DNA of 64,000 nt from Bradyrhizobium sp. ISRA464 (GTDB lineage: Bacteria; Pseudomonadota; Alphaproteobacteria; Rhizobiales; Xanthobacteraceae), in assembly GCF_029910095.1 (NCBI RefSeq), contig NZ_CP094526.1, positions 3,844,001 through 3,908,000 of the forward strand, read 5' to 3'. The first letter of the stretch is position 1, and each line of letters begins with the position of its first letter. Under the pieces are notes generated by a model, which worked only from the letters and a program-made list of their open reading frames with translations, had not been told where the DNA came from and did no database searches. Shown piece by piece: positions 4,951 to 33,231 of the stretch. The translations under genes were made by a program, and so were the position numbers.

Positions 4951-6456
4951 ATGGACGTTCTGACCACCACCGAGATGGAGCGCGCCGACCGGCTGACCAT
5001 CGCAGCCGGCACGCCCGGCTTCGCCTTGATGATGAGCGCGGGCCAAGCGGTTGCCGAGGCGGCGATGGACCTGGTCGAGGAGGGGCCGATCGTCGTGGTC
5101 GCCGGCCGCGGCAACAATGGCGGTGACGGGTTCGTCGCGGCCGCCGAGCTTGCGGCGCGTGGCCGCGAGGTCTCGGTCATCCTGCTCTGCGAGCGCGACA
5201 GCCTGCAGGGCGATGCCGCGCTGGCGGCGAAGGGCTGGAAATATCCGGTGCTGCCGTTCAACCCGCAGGCGCTGGGCATCGGCAAGCCGGCGCTGATCAT
5301 CGACGCGCTGTTCGGCGCCGGCCTCAACCGGCCGGTCAAGGGCGACCCGCTGGAGATGATCGCGGCGATCAACGCCAACGGCGCGCCAGTGCTGGCCGTC
5401 GATCTGCCGAGCGGCATCAACGGCACCACCGGCGCCGTGATGGGCGCCGCGGTGCAGGCGACCGAGACCGTGACCTTCTTCCGCAAGAAGCCCGGCCATC
5501 TGCTGCTGCCGGGACGGATGCATTGCGGCCGCGTGCGCGTCGCCGATATCGGCATCGATCCGCAGGTACTGGACGAGATCAAGCCGCTGACCGCCGAGAA
5601 CCTGCCGCAGGCTTGGCGGTGGTCGTTTCCGGTGCCGCGGATGGACGGCCACAAATATGCGCGCGGGCATGCGGTGGTGGTGTCCGGCGACATCGCCTCG
5701 ACCGGCGCGGCCCGGCTCGCCGCGCGCGGGGCGCTGCGCGCCGGCGCCGGCCTGGTGACGCTGGCCTCGCCGCGCGACGCGCTGGCCGTCAATGCCGCGG
5801 CGCTGACCGCGGTGATGGTGCGCGCGGTCGACAATCCGATCCAGTTCGCCGAACTGCTCGGCGACAAGAGGCTCAATGCCTGCGTGATCGGCCCCGGCGT
5901 CGGCGTCAATGCGCGCACGCGCGACTTCGTCCACACCGCGCTGTCGGCGCAGCGGCACCTCGTGCTCGATGCCGACGCGCTGACGAGTTTTGCGGGCGCG
6001 CCGGACCGGCTGTTCGAGGCGATCAAGGCCTCCGACGGTCAGCAGGTGGTGCTGACGCCGCATGAGGGCGAGTTCCCGCGGCTGTTCAGCGACATCTCCA
6101 ACAAGTATCCCGGCCGCTCCAAGCTTGAGCGCGTGCGCGCCGCGGCCGAGCGGTCCGGCGCCGTGGTGCTGCTGAAGGGCGCGGACACAGTGGTCGCATC
6201 GCCAGCCGGCCGCGCCACCATCGCCGCCAATGCGCCGCCCTGGCTCGCCACCGCCGGCGCCGGCGACGTGCTGTCCGGCATCATCGCAGGCTTTCTGGCG
6301 CAGGGCGTGCCGGCGTTCGAGGCCGCCAGCATCGGTGTGTGGATGCACGGCGAGGGCGCCGGCGAAGCCGGGCCCGGCCTGATCGCGGAGGATCTGACCG
6401 AGGTGTTGCCCGCTGTGTTCCGCCGGATCTACGACGAGTTCGGGATTGAATATTAG
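4951..6456 (+). CDS. nnr: Bifunctional NAD(P)H-hydrate epimerase / ADP-dependent NAD(P)H-hydrate dehydratase
   Basis: 501 residues, the usual size of the fused enzyme. It repairs damaged, hydrated NAD(P)H. The N-terminal YjeF_N epimerase domain (about residues 1-215) shows the signature GRGNNGGDGFV and VDLPSGING. The C-terminal ribokinase-like dehydratase domain (about 225-500) shows GPGVGVNARTRD, LTPHEGEFPRLF and the catalytic GAGDVLSG loop. The start follows GAGGATT in a good position. It is divergent from glnB-glnA, an arrangement known from related genomes; the functional link, if any, is unclear. The 3' side is followed by intergenic repeats and insertion sequences. Confidence 0.95.
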   Translation: MDVLTTTEMERADRLTIAAGTPGFALMMSAGQAVAEAAMDLVEEGPIVVVAGRGNNGGDGFVAAAELAARGREVSVILLCERDSLQGDAALAAKGWKYPVLPFNPQALGIGKPALIIDALFGAGLNRPVKGDPLEMIAAINANGAPVLAVDLPSGINGTTGAVMGAAVQATETVTFFRKKPGHLLLPGRMHCGRVRVADIGIDPQVLDEIKPLTAENLPQAWRWSFPVPRMDGHKYARGHAVVVSGDIASTGAARLAARGALRAGAGLVTLASPRDALAVNAAALTAVMVRAVDNPIQFAELLGDKRLNACVIGPGVGVNARTRDFVHTALSAQRHLVLDADALTSFAGAPDRLFEAIKASDGQQVVLTPHEGEFPRLFSDISNKYPGRSKLERVRAAAERSGAVVLLKGADTVVASPAGRATIAANAPPWLATAGAGDVLSGIIAGFLAQGVPAFEAASIGVWMHGEGAGEAGPGLIAEDLTEVLPAVFRRIYDEFGIEY

Positions 6457-6550
6457 ATCGCTCGCGCTCGCCGACAGGGACGACGCGGCCGCGCGCTCGG
6501 GACGTTAAAGCGGGATGAGTTTGGGTTGAATCGAGTCGCGGCGGCTTCGG

Positions 6551-6702
6551 TCCACCTCTCCCTGTCGGGGAGAGGTCGGATTGCGCTCGGCGATGCGGAG
6601 CATCGTCCGGTGCAATCCGGGTGAGGGGCCTTGCGCTCTCGATAGACCGTAACCCCTCACCCGATTTCCTGCGCAAATCGACCTCTCCCAACGGAGAGGT
6701 GA
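6551..6702. repeat. Composite palindromic intergenic repeat (CACCTCTCCC family)
   Basis: An outer pair ACCTCTCCCTGTCGGGGAGAGGT (split stem at 6554-6576) is followed by a long hairpin around 6577-6620 (GGATTGC...GCAATCC arms) and ends with a second ACCTCTCCCAACGGAGAGGT hairpin near 6681-6700. Recognised from experience as a dispersed Bradyrhizobium intergenic repeat. The rest of the 290-base gap between nnr and the first IS holds nothing else I can identify. Confidence 0.75.
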
Positions 6703-6746
6703 CCTCCAACGCTGTTTTCAGGTCAATTTAATCCCATCATGCTTTA

Positions 6747-7594
6747 GGCAGTGTGGACTCTAAGGATTCCCTTTTGAGAGCAAATCAGATTCAAGGCTGC
6801 TTTTGGGGAGGCAGTCTTGGGTGTGATGGATCGTTTGGTGTTGAGCGACGCGGCCTGGGAGCGCATGGCGCCGCTGATCATCGGCCGGCCCGACCAGAAG
6901 GGCTCGACCGGGCGAGACAACCGGATGTTCGTGGAAGGTGTGCTTTGGATCGTGCGGACCGGCTCTCCCTGGCGTGATCTTCCGGAGGTGTTCGGGGACT
7001 GGAACAGCGTGTTCCGGCGCTTCAGCCGATGGAGCACCAAGGGTGTTTGGTGGCGGATCTTCGAGGCGATGTCCGACGACCCAGACTTCGAATATCTAAT
7101 CGTCGATTCCACCATCGTCCGGGCGCATCAGCACGCCGCTGGGGCGAAAAAAGGGGGCCTGAAGATCAGGCGCTTGGCCGCTCGCGCGGCGGCCTGAGCA
7201 CGAAGATCCATATGGCCGTTCGCGGTCTTGGATGTCCTGTCCGGTTCACGCTCACCGCAGGCCAGAAGGGCGATGCACCGCAAGCCGCCGCATTGATCGA
7301 GGGACTGCCCGCCGAGGTCGTCATCGCCGACACAGCCTATGACGCCGACCATTTGCGCCAAGACATCGCCGCCAAAAAGGCGCTCGCCGTGATCCCCAAC
7401 AACCCGTCACGCGCGCTCAAATATCCGCTCGACAAGCATCTCTATGCCCAGCGCCATCTCGTGGAATGCTGCTTCTCCAAACTCAAGCAGTTCCGTCGCG
7501 TCGCTACCCGCTTCGAAAAAACCGCCCGAAATTACCGCGCCGTCGTCACTCTCGCCGCCATCGTCCTATGGATGCGATAAGTGTCCACACCGCC
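6747..7594 (+). mobile_element. IS5-family (IS427-like) insertion sequence, 848 bp
   Basis: The terminal inverted repeats match at 13 of 15 positions (GGCAGTGTGGACTCT at the left, GGCGGTGTGGACACT as reverse complement of the right end). TA flanks both ends (6745-6746 and 7595-7596), consistent with the TA duplication typical of this group. The element contains a two-frame transposase. Its right end is the target of the next element, which abuts it. Confidence 0.85.
6826..7580 (+). CDS. IS5-family transposase, made by -1 frameshifting across an A6 run
   Basis: Two overlapping frames encode one DDE transposase. The first (ATG at 6826, or upstream TTG/GTG) runs to a stop at 7195-7197 and holds the N-terminal DUF4096-like part and the first catalytic Asp (VDSTIVRAHQ). 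A run of six A at 7147-7152 followed by five G allows a -1 slip into the second frame, which reads ALGRSRGGLSTK, the second Asp (IADTAYDADHL) and the Glu region (ECCFSKLKQFRR) to the stop at 7580. This layout is standard for IS427-group elements, so the element may be intact rather than mutated. GGGGAGG at 6805-6811 is the likely ribosome-binding site. Confidence 0.85.
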
Positions 7595-7597
7595 TAG

Positions 7598-9008
7598 CAC
7601 TACAGTTGCATTTATCTGACGGTTCTGAATCTATGGGCAACCATGATTCGGGATCAGATGAATGGTGGTGCTTCGGTTGAGGATGTGCTGTCGCTGTGGG
7701 CGGCGTCATTGCGGGAGGCCAAGCAGCGTATCCGACCTTTGTTCACGCAGGAGCGTGTAGCCGCTTCGGCGGCCCAGTTTCTCGACGCGTTGCTCGGCAA
7801 CGAGCCGCGCAAGACAGGCTGGATGCGGGCCGAGGCAGCTGGCGACAGCGGACCGTGGCGACAGCAGGCCTTACTGGGTCGTGGGCGCTGGGATGCCGAC
7901 GACTTGCGCGACATCGTTCGTGATCATGTCATCGAACATCTGGGCGACAACAACGCAGTCCTGGTGATCGACGAGACCGGCTTTCTCAAGCAGGGCAAGG
8001 CCTCGTGCGGCGTGGGGCGGCAATACACGGGTTCTGCCGGCAAGATCACCAACTGCCAGATCGGCGTGTTCGCCTCCTACGTATCCGTCAAGGGTCACGC
8101 CTTCATTGATCGTGCGCTCTATCTGCCGAAAGCCTGGACATCCGATCCCACCCGATTGAAAGCGACCCATGTGCCGGAGACGGTGGCATTTGCCACCAAG
8201 CCGCAGTTGGCCGTCAGCATGGTCAAGAGGGCGATCGCGGCCGACGTCCCCTTCGCTTGGGTGGCTGCCGACAGTGTGTATGGCGTCGGCGACCTCGAAG
8301 CGGCTCTGCGGCGTGCCGGCAAAGGCTACGTGCTGGGCGTCCACGCCAACCACTGGTTCAGCTCATGGCACCCGGATTACCTCGTGGCTGGTGAAGCAAA
8401 GGAGATTGCCGAGGCGCTCCCCGCCCAAAAGTGGAAGCGCCTGTCGGCAGGTCATGGAACCAAGGGCGAACGTCTCTACGATTGGGCCTATTGCCCGCTG
8501 GCCGATCTCGACGCTGCCGAATACGACATGCAGCTGCCAGGCATCTGGACCCGCGGGCTGCTGATCCGACGCGGCCTTGCCGACGGTGAACTCTCCTACT
8601 TCACCACATGGTGTCCCGAGGGCACCTCGATCGAGAGCCTCGTTCGTGTTGAAGGAACGCGATGGCGTGTCAAAGAAGATTTTGAGACGACAAAGGGCGA
8701 GCTCGGTCTCGACCACAATGAAAGTCGCTCTTGGCACGGCTGGCACCGGCATGTCTCCCTGGTCATGCTGGCTTACGCCGTCATGACCACCGTCCGATCT
8801 CAGGTGAACGCGATGATGCCGAAAAAAACGAAATCGACGCACCGGCAAGACTCATCCGCTGGTCGGTCCAGGAAATCCGACGCCTCATCTTAAAGCTTGC
8901 ACAGCGCCGGATCCCAATCGTTCGCGTCCTGGCATGGTCCACATTCCGACGCGCCCATCAAGCCGCAGCTCGAAAGGCGCATCTCAAATCAAAAATGCAA
9001 CTGTAGTG
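7598..9008 (+). mobile_element. IS701-family insertion sequence, copy 1, 1411 bp
   Basis: The ends are inverted (CACTACAGTTGCATTT at the left; the right end reads as CACTACAGTTGCATTTTT on the other strand). A 4-base target duplication CTAG flanks the element at 7594-7597 and 9009-9012, fitting the YTAR preference of IS701 elements. The left CTAG uses the last base of the neighbouring IS5 element, so this element inserted second, at the junction. The right CTAG contains the stop codon of the minus-strand enolase gene. Confidence 0.9.
7643..9006 (+). CDS. IS701-family transposase, likely with -1 frameshift tail
   Basis: The zero frame runs from ATG 7643 to a stop at 8893 (416 residues). It holds the DDE core of the family: VIDETGFLKQG, AADSVYGVGD and EDFETTKGELGLDH. 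A run of seven A at 8822-8828 allows a -1 slip after two Lys codons into a frame that stays open to a TAG at 9004-9006, inside the terminal repeat, and encodes a basic tail (LIRWSVQEIRR, KLAQRRIP, FRRAHQAA, ending KSKMQL). Family members normally end with such a tail, and copy 2 near 31 kb has the same A7 and the same tail frame. Either translational slippage is used or both copies carry the same kind of frameshift. Confidence 0.85.
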
Positions 9009-10094
9009 CTAGCTCACCAGATACTTCGCCACCGCGGACTCATTCCATTCGATGCCGAGGCCGGGACCGCGCGCGGTGACCGTGCCGTCGACGACCTCGG
9101 CAGGGGTTGCCAGGATCGTGCCGGCGAAGTCGAGGAATTCGAGCCAATGCGCGGTCGGCGTCACCGCGAGCAGATGCGCACTGACCTCCGCGAACAGGTG
9201 GCTCGACATCGGGATCGAGGCGGCGTCGGCCTGACCTGCGACCTGCAGCCAGCCGGTGACGCCGCCGACCTTCATCACGTCAGGCATGATGAAGTCGGAG
9301 GCGCCGGCCGCGATCGCCTCGGCAAAGCCGCGCGGAAACCACCAGTTCTCGCCGGCCTGGATCGGCGTCGGCGAGGTCTCGCGGACCTTGGCGTGGCCGG
9401 AGAGGTTTTCCTGCGGCACCGGCTCCTCGATCCAGTGCAGGTCGTAGGGCGCGAGCCGCGCGATGCGGCGCGTCGCTTCCGCCGGATCGAGCGACTGGTT
9501 GAAGTCGATCATCAGCGCGACGTCGGAGCCGAGCAGGGCGCGCACGCCCTTGACCACGCGCTCGTCATTGGCGGCATCTCCATCGCCACCCTTGATCTTG
9601 ATGCCCCTGAAGCCCTGGTCGAGCGAGCGGCGCAGCGCGCGCTCATCGGCGACCGGATCGACCGCGCCATAGCTGTCATAGGCCTTGATCGGCTTGGCCG
9701 AGCCGCCGAGCAATTCGACCAGCGGCCGGCCGGCGAGTTGCCCGAGCACGTCCCAATAGGCCATGTCGAGGCCTGACACCGCCATTCCGACCAGCCCCTG
9801 CCAGCCGAGCAGCCGGAATTTGGCGTCCATCGCCTTCATCAGCTCGAACGGCGCGACCGGCTTGCCGACGAGGTCGCGGCCGATCTCCTCGATCAGGTAG
9901 CAGAGAGGTTTAAGCGTAAGCTTGCTGTAGGCGAAGATGTAGGCGCGGCCGGTAACGCCCTGATCGGTCTCGACATCGATCAGGACCAGCGGACCGGAAT
10001 CGATCACGCCGAAGGCGTTCTTCACGGGACGCTTGAGCGGCACCACGACGCCTCGTGCGCGGACTCCGCGAATCGCGGCAACTGTCTGACTCAT
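9009..10094 (-). CDS. Mandelate racemase/muconate lactonizing enzyme family protein (enolase superfamily)
   Basis: 361 residues from ATG 10094, which has GGGGGAAA upstream; an ATG ten codons earlier lacks a site. All residues of the mandelate racemase active site are present with nearly the same numbering: KIK (Lys166, Lys168), metal ligands Asp197, Glu223 and Glu249, the Asp272/His299 pair (PDVMK, SSHLF) and Glu319. It should abstract an alpha-proton from an acid substrate such as mandelate or a sugar acid; the substrate is not predictable. It begins 20 bases after the upstream oxidase-like gene, so the two form an operon. The stop TAG lies in the target duplication of the IS701 element; before the insertions it was probably TAA. 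Confidence 0.9.
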   Translation of the reverse strand: MSQTVAAIRGVRARGVVVPLKRPVKNAFGVIDSGPLVLIDVETDQGVTGRAYIFAYSKLTLKPLCYLIEEIGRDLVGKPVAPFELMKAMDAKFRLLGWQGLVGMAVSGLDMAYWDVLGQLAGRPLVELLGGSAKPIKAYDSYGAVDPVADERALRRSLDQGFRGIKIKGGDGDAANDERVVKGVRALLGSDVALMIDFNQSLDPAEATRRIARLAPYDLHWIEEPVPQENLSGHAKVRETSPTPIQAGENWWFPRGFAEAIAAGASDFIMPDVMKVGGVTGWLQVAGQADAASIPMSSHLFAEVSAHLLAVTPTAHWLEFLDFAGTILATPAEVVDGTVTARGPGLGIEWNESAVAKYLVS

Positions 10095-30569: not shown

Positions 30570-30617
30570 GGCTTTCCCCCGATATGTCTTTTTTGTTCGC
30601 TCGAGTGCGGGCCCTAG

Positions 30618-32040
30618 CATTACAGTTGCATCTTCCTGAAGGTTCTGAATCTATGGGCGACCATGATTCGGGATCTGATGATTGGTGGCGCGTCGGTTGA
30701 GGATACGCTGACGCTGTGGGCTTCGTCGTTGCGAGATGCCAAGCAACGCATCCGTCCGCTGTTTACGCAAGAGCGGGTCGCGGCCTCGGCGGGGCAATTT
30801 CTCGACGGACTGTTGGGCAACGAGCCGCGCAAGACGGGTTGGATGCGGGCGGAAGCGGCTGGCGATCCAGGCCCGTGGCGCCAGCAGGCGATTCTGGGTC
30901 GGGGGCAGTGGGATGCCGACGCGCTGCGCGATATTGTACGTGAGTACGCGCTGGAAACGCTGGGTGACGAGGACGCGGTTCTGGTCATCGATGAGACCGG
31001 CTTTTTGAAACAGGGCAAGGCCTCGTGTGGGGTCGCGCGCCAGTACACTGGCTCGGCGGGCAAGATCACCAATTGCCAGATCGGAGTGTTTGCCTCCTAT
31101 GTGTCGCGGCATGGCCATGCCTTCATCGATCGGGCGCTCTACCTGCCAAAGGAATGGACGGACGAACCCGCTCGCCTGAAGGCCGCACATGTCCCGAGCG
31201 ATGTGAGCTTTGCGACGAAGCCCCGGATCGCGCATCAAATGATCGCTCGCGCGATCGCCGCAAAGGTGCCGTTCTCGTTCGTAGCAGCGGACAGCGTGTA
31301 TGGCACGGGAGCGATCGAAACCCTGCTGCGCAAGGCGGGCAAAGGCTATGTTCTGGGGGTTGCTTCCAATCACGTGTTCTATTCCTGGGGCAAGCAGCAG
31401 CCTGTCGCCGGCACTGCCTCTACGATCGCGCAGAGCCTTCCCAAGAAGGCCTGGCGCCGCCTGCCGTCCGGCGAAGGAACCAAAGGTCCGCGCTGGCACG
31501 ACTGGGCCTATCTTGAGCTGGCCGATCTCGACGCCGGCGAATACAACGACGACCTTGCCGGGGAATGGACCCGAGGTCTTCTGATCCGCCGCAATATTGC
31601 CGACAACAGCTTAGCCTTCTTCTCCACATGGTGCCCCAAGGGCACGTCCATGCAGAAGCTGGTATCCGTGGAAGGCCATCGCTGGGCCATCGAAGACAGC
31701 TTCGAAACCGCCAAGAACGAGCTCGGTCTTGATCACAACGAAACCCGCTCCTGGCATGGCTGGCATCGCCATGTCTCACTGGTCATGCTTGCCTTCGCCA
31801 CGATGGCCGTCATCCGTCATCGGGCCAACACCGGAGCATTGCTTAAAAAAACGCGACCGCGGCCCCGACCGAAGCATCGTTCTTGATCCGCTGGTCGATC
31901 CAGGAAATCCGCCGCATCGCCATGAAGCTCGCCCAGCGGCGCATCCCGCATGCCCACATCCTCGCATGGTCATCCTGGCGCAGGGCTCATCAAGCCAACG
32001 CGCGCAAAGCGCATCTCAAGCAAAAATTACAACTGTAATG
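30618..32040 (+). mobile_element. IS701-family insertion sequence, copy 2, 1423 bp
   Basis: Inverted ends CATTACAGTTG at the left and, as reverse complement, CATTACAGTTG at the right. A CTAG target duplication lies at 30614-30617 and 32041-32044. The element is related to, but clearly diverged from, the one at 7598. Its right CTAG contains the stop codon of the minus-strand Rieske gene, so it sits between that gene and the decayed MFS gene. Confidence 0.9.
30663..32038 (+). CDS. IS701-family transposase, copy 2, likely with -1 frameshift tail
   Basis: The zero frame (ATG 30663 to stop 31886, 407 residues) contains VIDETGFLKQG, AADSVYGTGA and EDSFETAKNELGLDH. A run of seven A at 31845-31851 lies at the same place as in copy 1. 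The -1 frame after it stays open to TAA at 32036-32038 and encodes the same basic tail (LIRWSIQEIRR, KLAQRRIP, WRRAHQAN, ending KQKLQL). Outside this tail the proteins differ at many positions, so the shared A7 and the preserved tail frame argue for functional slippage rather than chance mutation. Confidence 0.85.
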
Positions 32041-33231
32041 CTAGGCCTCGCGGATATAGTTCCCCGCTTCGAATTCGACCGGCCTGGCGTCGGCGTCGAA
32101 CGACACCCCGATCGGGTCGCGACCGGCCGCCAGCGCCTCGAGCTGGTCAGAGAGCATGCGGCGGATCATCAAGATGCCGCGGTCGCTCTGGCCGAAATGC
32201 TCCTCGGAATGGATCGTCTGCGCGCCCTGGCCGACCTGTGCCTCGTAATCACCCGGGGATTGCTGGTGCTCGGCTTCCGTCATGTCCCACCAGAACTTGC
32301 CGTTGAACTTCGAGCGCATCCGGCCGATGTCGCCGGCGTTCTTGACCCGGCCCGCGACATAAATGCGGAACGAGGTGTCGTCGATCGGCAGCGTCCAGCC
32401 GATCGATTCCACCCGGGCGAACTGGGCGACGCGCGGATTGGGCACCACGCGCAGCGTGGGGAGGGCAGCCTCGGTGACGCGATAGAACACCTTGCCGTCG
32501 TCCTGCCTGCGGATCGAGCGCACGGCGACGCCGCGCGGCGACATCTCGAACTTCACCTCCGGCATCGAGGCCATCATGGTGGTGAACTGCGGGCCGCTGA
32601 ACGAGCCGTGCAGCACCGGCACGTGGTAGGGGTCGACCACGTTCTCGAAATGCTGCAGCCAGTTGCAGGGGATGATCGCGGGGCCGCCGCCGCCGATCGA
32701 GGAATCGTCGGCCTCGACGAACTCGCCGTCGTCCATGGTCTCGAGACATTCGTAGCGCGGCAGCACCGGCTGTTTCTCGGCCGGGCCCATATAGGCGAAG
32801 ATCAGGCCGTAGCGCTCCTGCACCGGATACCATGGCTGGCGCACCTTGTCCTTGAAGCGGCCGCCGTCGGGCTCGCAGGGCTGCTCGAGGCAGTGGCCTT
32901 CGGTGTCGAATTTCCAGCCGTGATAGCAGCAGCGGATGCCGTCTTCCTCGACCTTGCCGTAATAGAGCGTGGTGCCGCGATGGCAGCAGCGGGCATGCAG
33001 CAGGCCGACCCGACCATGCTTGGCGCGAAAGAGGATGAGGTCTTCGCCGAGAGCGCGCACTTTTCTGGGGATATCGGTGGCGTCGCTGGAGAGACCGATC
33101 GGGTGCCAGTAGCGGCGCAGCAGTTCGCCCATCGGCGTGCCGCGGACGACCGAGGTGAGCTCGGTCCGGGTGGTGGACGGCTTCATGGCATAGGCCGTGC
33201 CGAGGTCGCGGTCCTGCTGGGTGATCGTCAT
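32041..33231 (-). CDS. Rieske non-heme iron oxygenase, alpha subunit type
   Basis: 396 residues. The N-terminal Rieske domain binds a 2Fe-2S cluster through CCHRG and CCYHGW (Cys/His pairs near residues 82-105). The catalytic domain holds the mononuclear iron ligands in NVVDPYHVPVLHG (two His) with a downstream Asp. The overall type resembles phthalate/vanillate demethylase-like ring hydroxylases, so an aromatic or methoxy-aromatic substrate is likely but not determined. No reductase gene is adjacent. It is divergent from a MarR-type gene with a palindromic operator between them. Its stop TAG comes from the IS701 target duplication. Confidence 0.9.
   Translation of the reverse strand: MTITQQDRDLGTAYAMKPSTTRTELTSVVRGTPMGELLRRYWHPIGLSSDATDIPRKVRALGEDLILFRAKHGRVGLLHARCCHRGTTLYYGKVEEDGIRCCYHGWKFDTEGHCLEQPCEPDGGRFKDKVRQPWYPVQERYGLIFAYMGPAEKQPVLPRYECLETMDDGEFVEADDSSIGGGGPAIIPCNWLQHFENVVDPYHVPVLHGSFSGPQFTTMMASMPEVKFEMSPRGVAVRSIRRQDDGKVFYRVTEAALPTLRVVPNPRVAQFARVESIGWTLPIDDTSFRIYVAGRVKNAGDIGRMRSKFNGKFWWDMTEAEHQQSPGDYEAQVGQGAQTIHSEEHFGQSDRGILMIRRMLSDQLEALAAGRDPIGVSFDADARPVEFEAGNYIREA

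Follow-up and report, generated by a model that had tools for sequence, protein, structure and literature searches.

The locus analyzed here lies in a window of 64,000 nucleotides from Bradyrhizobium sp. ISRA464 (the whole stretch of DNA under study) and raises the question of why insertion sequences (ISs) of two families should lie end to end on the stop codon of a single gene. Between two convergent genes, namely, an NAD(P)H-hydrate repair gene (4951-6456, plus strand) to the left of the stack and an enolase-superfamily gene (9009-10094, minus strand) whose stop codon carries it, we found three adjoining units. The first is a palindromic repeat of the MITE or REP type in appearance, at about 6508-6744; an IS5-family element and then an IS701-family element follow. 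The product of the minus-strand gene resembles the mandelate racemase/muconate lactonizing enzymes (MR/MLE) of the enolase superfamily, and no NCBIfam model matched it above the cutoff. On the sequence evidence presented below, this stack is probably (at a probability of about 0.78) an example of a wider tendency of IS701-family elements to land at IS5-family ends more often than their target sequence predicts; here, the site struck was by chance a stop codon.

Three layers on one stop codon

The 848-bp IS5-family element (6747-7594, plus strand) is bounded by a TA duplication (6745-6746 and 7595-7596). The first (DUF4096; 6817-7197) and second (DDE; 7029-7580) of its plus-strand transposase frames both matched the NCBIfam IS5 model NF033580 (134 and 161 bits, with a cutoff of 110). 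The IS427 group of the IS5 family is distinguished by two overlapping frames and by a TA duplication within a YTAR target. The window element shows these features: in addition to its TA duplication, its frames overlap at an A6G5 run (AAAAAAGGGGG, 7147-7157), a putative site of frameshifting. Its relatives at loci L103, L109, and L126 display a 2-bp TA duplication, with one end reading CTA|GG and the opposite end CC|TAA; the G and C that adjoin the TA are therefore part of the IS5 element.

The 1,411-bp IS701-family element (type a; 7598-9008, plus strand), delineated by its ends, its copies, and a profile match, is flanked by CTAG on both sides (7594-7597 and 9009-9012), with inverted repeats, CTAG included, at 7594-7613 and 8993-9012. 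Its 416-aa transposase (7643-8893, plus strand) matched the NCBIfam IS701 model NF033540 with 420 bits (cutoff of 150). The length of 1,400 to 1,550 bp and the 4-bp duplication given for the family in the portion of PMC2266710 consulted here agree with this element, whereas landing on an IS5 end, as seen here, is not among the features described in that portion. Family members in the sections of PMC8024623 considered have repeats of 4 to 9 bp without a consensus, in contrast to the CTAG found here; in this genome, CTAG stands on both sides at all 30 IS701 loci displayed, and a 31st, at 485742, has TTAG.

A single CTAG is common to the two elements. The inner copy begins with the C that closes the IS5 element (7594) and continues with the TA of the IS5 duplication, while the first three bases of the outer copy (9009-9011), read on the minus strand, are the TAG stop of the enolase-superfamily gene. 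The preliminary description had recognized both elements, their TA and CTAG duplications, and their common stop codon; it had also composed the IS701 target of the IS5 end plus that stop and had the stop re-created at each insertion step. All of this holds, the last because each insertion duplicates the TA.

The reconstruction of the original site fared less well. The GCTTTA to the left of the IS5 element, previously read as native flank, belongs to the palindromic repeat and forms its end where it abuts the IS5; this third layer had been missed. AAGC..GCTT are the ends of this repeat, and a TA stands on either side of it (6506-6507 and 6745-6746); a full-length copy with 96% identity (L072; ends CTAAAGC..GCTTTAG) and further partial copies occur elsewhere. 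Its inverted ends and several copies are seen directly, and the TA on both sides is a putative target duplication. In the nearest relative found (G003, locus L002), whose flanks are 92% and 90% identical to those of the window, the site is free of both the repeat and any IS and reads CTCCTAGCTCACC, with TAG as the stop; the empty junction that had been predicted, GCTTTAGCTCACC, was not found, although this relative is another species and not a strict empty-site test. Nor did the proposed preinsertion TAA find a counterpart: across 14 relatives, the stop of this gene is TAG in 11 and TGA in 3 but never TAA. The likely history, in part inferential, is that the stop was TAG, that the palindromic repeat entered its TA and turned it into TAA, that IS5 entered the same TA and returned it to TAG, and that IS701 entered the resulting CTAG and left TAG once more. 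The first of these steps is not proven, in that the TTA to the left of the repeat fits a TAA stop equally well.

Palindromic repeats recur at the end of this gene in relatives. At L005, L007, and L008, its TAG stop is the start of another, GTAGGATGGGTGGAGCG-like repeat, and at L006, L009, L010, and L011, such a repeat lies about 10 bases behind the stop. GTAG-tagged repeats have reportedly been described in one published study (PMC3733652). Relatives of the window IS5 at L109, L110, L123, and L127 sit on the ends of CTARAGCRYGAT palindromic repeats, so that 4 of 24 relatives occupy such ends versus 8 of 309 YTAR sites (P = 0.007); the corresponding count for IS701 in Bradyrhizobium is 0 of 24 loci. 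Repeated palindromes are known IS targets, as in the ISs that target REP palindromes (PMC1525189, in the part drawn on here). The palindromic target is the point of likeness to these 4 relatives and the window copy; however, REP elements are not transposons with ends of their own, and IS701 shows no such excess here.

IS701 copies at IS5 ends

The genome holds 33 IS701 copies, of which 3 are of type a and 30 of type b (29 full-length and 1 interrupted); this count excludes a 49-bp match and the fragment at 2782432. It also holds 8 full-length copies of the IS5 element, two partial matches being left out. Fourteen of the 16 ends of these eight copies carry an IS701, and every copy touches at least one. 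The type and orientation of the IS701 neighbors take seven forms among the eight loci; this variation implies that the insertions were independent. One stack, at 2378965-2384087, is four elements deep. The exact IS5/IS701 junction pattern occurs 13 times in this genome and not once in the other 264 genomes searched, the pattern being one that fits this element pair only. At L262 (G000, about 174804-176125), an insert of some 1.3 kb, which contains a long open frame, splits one of the IS701 copies that lie at IS5 ends.

The most serious alternative is that sequence alone accounts for these junctions, with IS701 choosing sites resembling C-CTAG-G, of which IS5 ends supply half, and experiencing no further attraction. 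The lone IS701 sites do prefer a C before and a G after CTAG, and the two unoccupied IS5 ends in this genome score low (33 and 119), as do several occupied ones. Nevertheless, a target model, in the form of a matrix built from 18 lone IS701 sites and extrapolated to the whole genome from a sample of 195 kb, predicts that only 0.09 to 0.52 of the 33 IS701 copies would fall on the 16 IS5 ends, depending on the flank length used, as against the 14 observed. Moreover, the genome offers 752 occurrences of CTAGGC, counting both strands, and 27 places with GCCTAGGC. When inverted ends next to IS701 were sought without recourse to homology, 18 of 164 boundaries scored at least 13/18, 12 of them in this genome; in the control, the best of 30 offsets reached at least 13 at 11 of 164.

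For other genomes, we read 145 distinct boundaries from the best 80 of 390 confirmed IS701 loci together with 29 other-genome loci; 3 from loci chosen for adjacency were dropped before counting. Where 300 bp or more of sequence was present (130 boundaries), 14 had an IS5 frame within 150 bp, compared with 3 of 1,219 control windows further out. This rate could by itself come from a preference for CTAGG combined with many IS5 copies. The IS5 ends found at these boundaries differ widely, and none of the 29 best-match relatives of the window IS5 in other genomes had an IS701 in the flanks examined.

Eight genomes were read more fully (60 copies plus L172 and L152/L180, with fragments and one partial copy left out). 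One reservation about the pairing is that the IS5 sequences used as tblastn queries had been taken from elements lying next to IS701. Full-length IS701 copies touch an IS5 in 3/3 cases in G019, 3/3 in G155, and 2/2 in G224, three genomes where the pair was known beforehand, and in 1/3 in G226, 19/30 in G227, 1/18 in G259, 0/3 in G200, and 0/1 in G230. The copy in G226 (L345) was counted by its IS5-type end, the IS5 frame lying 215 bases in. A distant IS701-like element with the ends CACTACTTTGGCNG, present at L155, L180, L229, and L239, abuts IS701 copies or, in L180, the free end of an IS5.

Other IS5/IS701 pairs behave likewise elsewhere, as G227 illustrates. Its IS5 element (36 copies) differs from that of the window, has the ends GTGTCTGTCCGGGA and GAGTCTGTCCGGGA, and mostly duplicates TTA; 19 of its ends carry an IS701. 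These are divided 10 to 9 between the two ends of the element, include both orientations, and have 19 distinct outer flanks. These 19 junctions represent 18 IS701 copies, one of which lies between two IS5s, and the copy at L296 touches another IS5. The IS701 duplication is TTAG in 16 of the 18 copies joined to this IS5, whereas of the 12 copies not joined to it, 10 are flanked on each side by CTAG and 2 show unequal duplications. This use at IS5 ends of a target that IS701 otherwise does not use argues for an attraction beyond sequence. Taken with the excess over the target model, it leaves the explanation by base sequence alone improbable, if the best placed of the alternatives. Three head-to-tail IS5 pairs, three bases apart, also occur in G227 (C1:5177863-5179731, 2814864-2816732, and 3343993-3345857), indicating that IS5 lands on itself as well.

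Stop codons and the order of insertion

The preliminary description held that stop codons are safe landing sites favored by both families. We scored this by joining the flanks of each insertion by script and determining whether the best coding frame ends at the insertion site, with other CTAG or YTAR sites nearby scored in the same way as controls. The codon model was trained on genes of the window, recovers 12 of the 16 TAA/TAG stops of these training genes, and is less sensitive in other genomes, for cases and controls alike. At first sight, the proposal is favored by this genome, where 7 of 26 insertion loci (the fragment at 2782432 excluded) and 3 of the 8 IS5 loci coincide with stops, but 19 of 87 CTAG sites lie on stops as well, and the IS5 count does not depart from this background (P = 0.24). 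In other genomes, the corresponding values are 3 of 24 IS5 loci (4 of 28 having been dropped because their ends were not recognized) versus 3 of 81 CTAGs and 1 of 49 IS701 insertions versus 15 of 162 CTAGs. The pooled survey, using the first 24 loci of this genome, contains no excess on stops (11 of 97 insertions versus 37 of 330 background sites; P = 0.55), an outcome that the preliminary description had itself named as grounds for refutation. Its related claim that CTAG is scarce holds, and a good share of CTAG occurrences are stop codons, as the same 19 of 87 shows. We recognized no report of ISs favoring stop codons in the open literature, a search in which subscription journals lay mostly outside, and we regard a preference for stops as very unlikely. 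A type b IS701 copy at 30614-32044 of the window, flanked by CTAG, lies on the predicted stop of a minus-strand gene.

Equally hard to sustain is the converse order, in which IS701 came first and IS5 then inserted in the adjoining CTAG. Six of the eight loci in this genome are compatible with either order, their IS5 target and IS701 duplication both being CTAG. The orders can be told apart where the base beyond the far IS5 end is not the one that IS5 supplies, since each order then calls for its own IS701 duplication. The window IS5 has a T on its left (TTAG), and the outer IS701 duplication is CTAG, which supports the order that the preliminary description had given, IS5 and then IS701. At 172094-177123, two IS701 copies flank one IS5, with the duplications CTAG/CTAG and CTAA/CTAA. 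Together with L192, L193, L228, L152/L180, L307, and L314, these make eight informative loci, all eight of which give IS5 first; three G227 junctions (one at L304 and two at L311), where the IS701 duplications are unequal, are omitted from this count. No locus was seen in which the far-side base of IS5 appears in the outer IS701 duplication.

The idea that IS701-IS5-IS701 forms a compound transposon whose parts are copied together has least in its favor, in that a common arrangement at 3514422 and 3574085 and triplets in G019 and G155 are set against seven arrangements with two IS701 subtypes in eight loci, where a compound transposon has a fixed arrangement and one outer duplication, against unequal left and right duplications at 172094-177123, and against all four end/orientation classes in G227.

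A proposed mechanism and its precedents

We return to IS701 landing on IS5 ends as the preferred reading. An IS5-family element inserting in TA (or TTA) sets its terminal G beside the TA and so generates a YTAR sequence, usually CTAG or TTAG; this is the 4-bp target that IS701 duplicates, and IS701 then enters such junctions at both ends of the IS5 and in both orientations. The sequences show directly the junctions, their numbers, their independence, and, where it can be read, the earlier arrival of IS5. Beyond this, a factor other than YTAR appears to draw IS701; for example, its transposase might recognize the IS5 end, or alternatively, IS701 might be recruited to the gap repair that accompanies a new IS5 insertion. 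The beta clamp is bound by transposases of several families (PMC4549789, in the part cited), which makes such recruitment thinkable, no more. We tentatively suggest, at somewhat less than even odds, that IS701 transposases are actively guided to the junctions made by IS5, and not by base sequence; the guide could be the end of IS5, the IS5 transposase, or the repair of the newly made junction.

Elements that target the ends of other elements are already known; the pairing of IS701 with IS5 is new, and we found no report of it in the open literature, with subscription journals mostly outside the search. According to the part of PMC8269217 used here, IS4321 and IS5075 (IS1111 group of IS110) insert in the terminal inverted repeats of Tn21-type transposons. 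The likeness is that the ends of one element are the target of another; that work speaks of a safe harbor and records that a chance match near the stop codon of a gene was also struck. However, the families and chemistry are other ones, and the target there is a conserved repeat, in contrast to the very different IS5 ends here, which have only YTAR plus G in common.

Hot spots of ISs attract new ISs, as noted in the portion of PMC9208149 considered. The junctions described here offer a simple rule for such pileups, in which the insertion chemistry of one family builds the target of the next, and stacked ISs need not mark a favored position in a gene, stop codons included. Should the attraction beyond sequence prove real, it would be a new example of transposon targeting that is directly testable by a plasmid assay. 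If IS701 is indeed guided, IS5 elements would act as mobile docking pads on which an unrelated IS family multiplies without breaking new genes.
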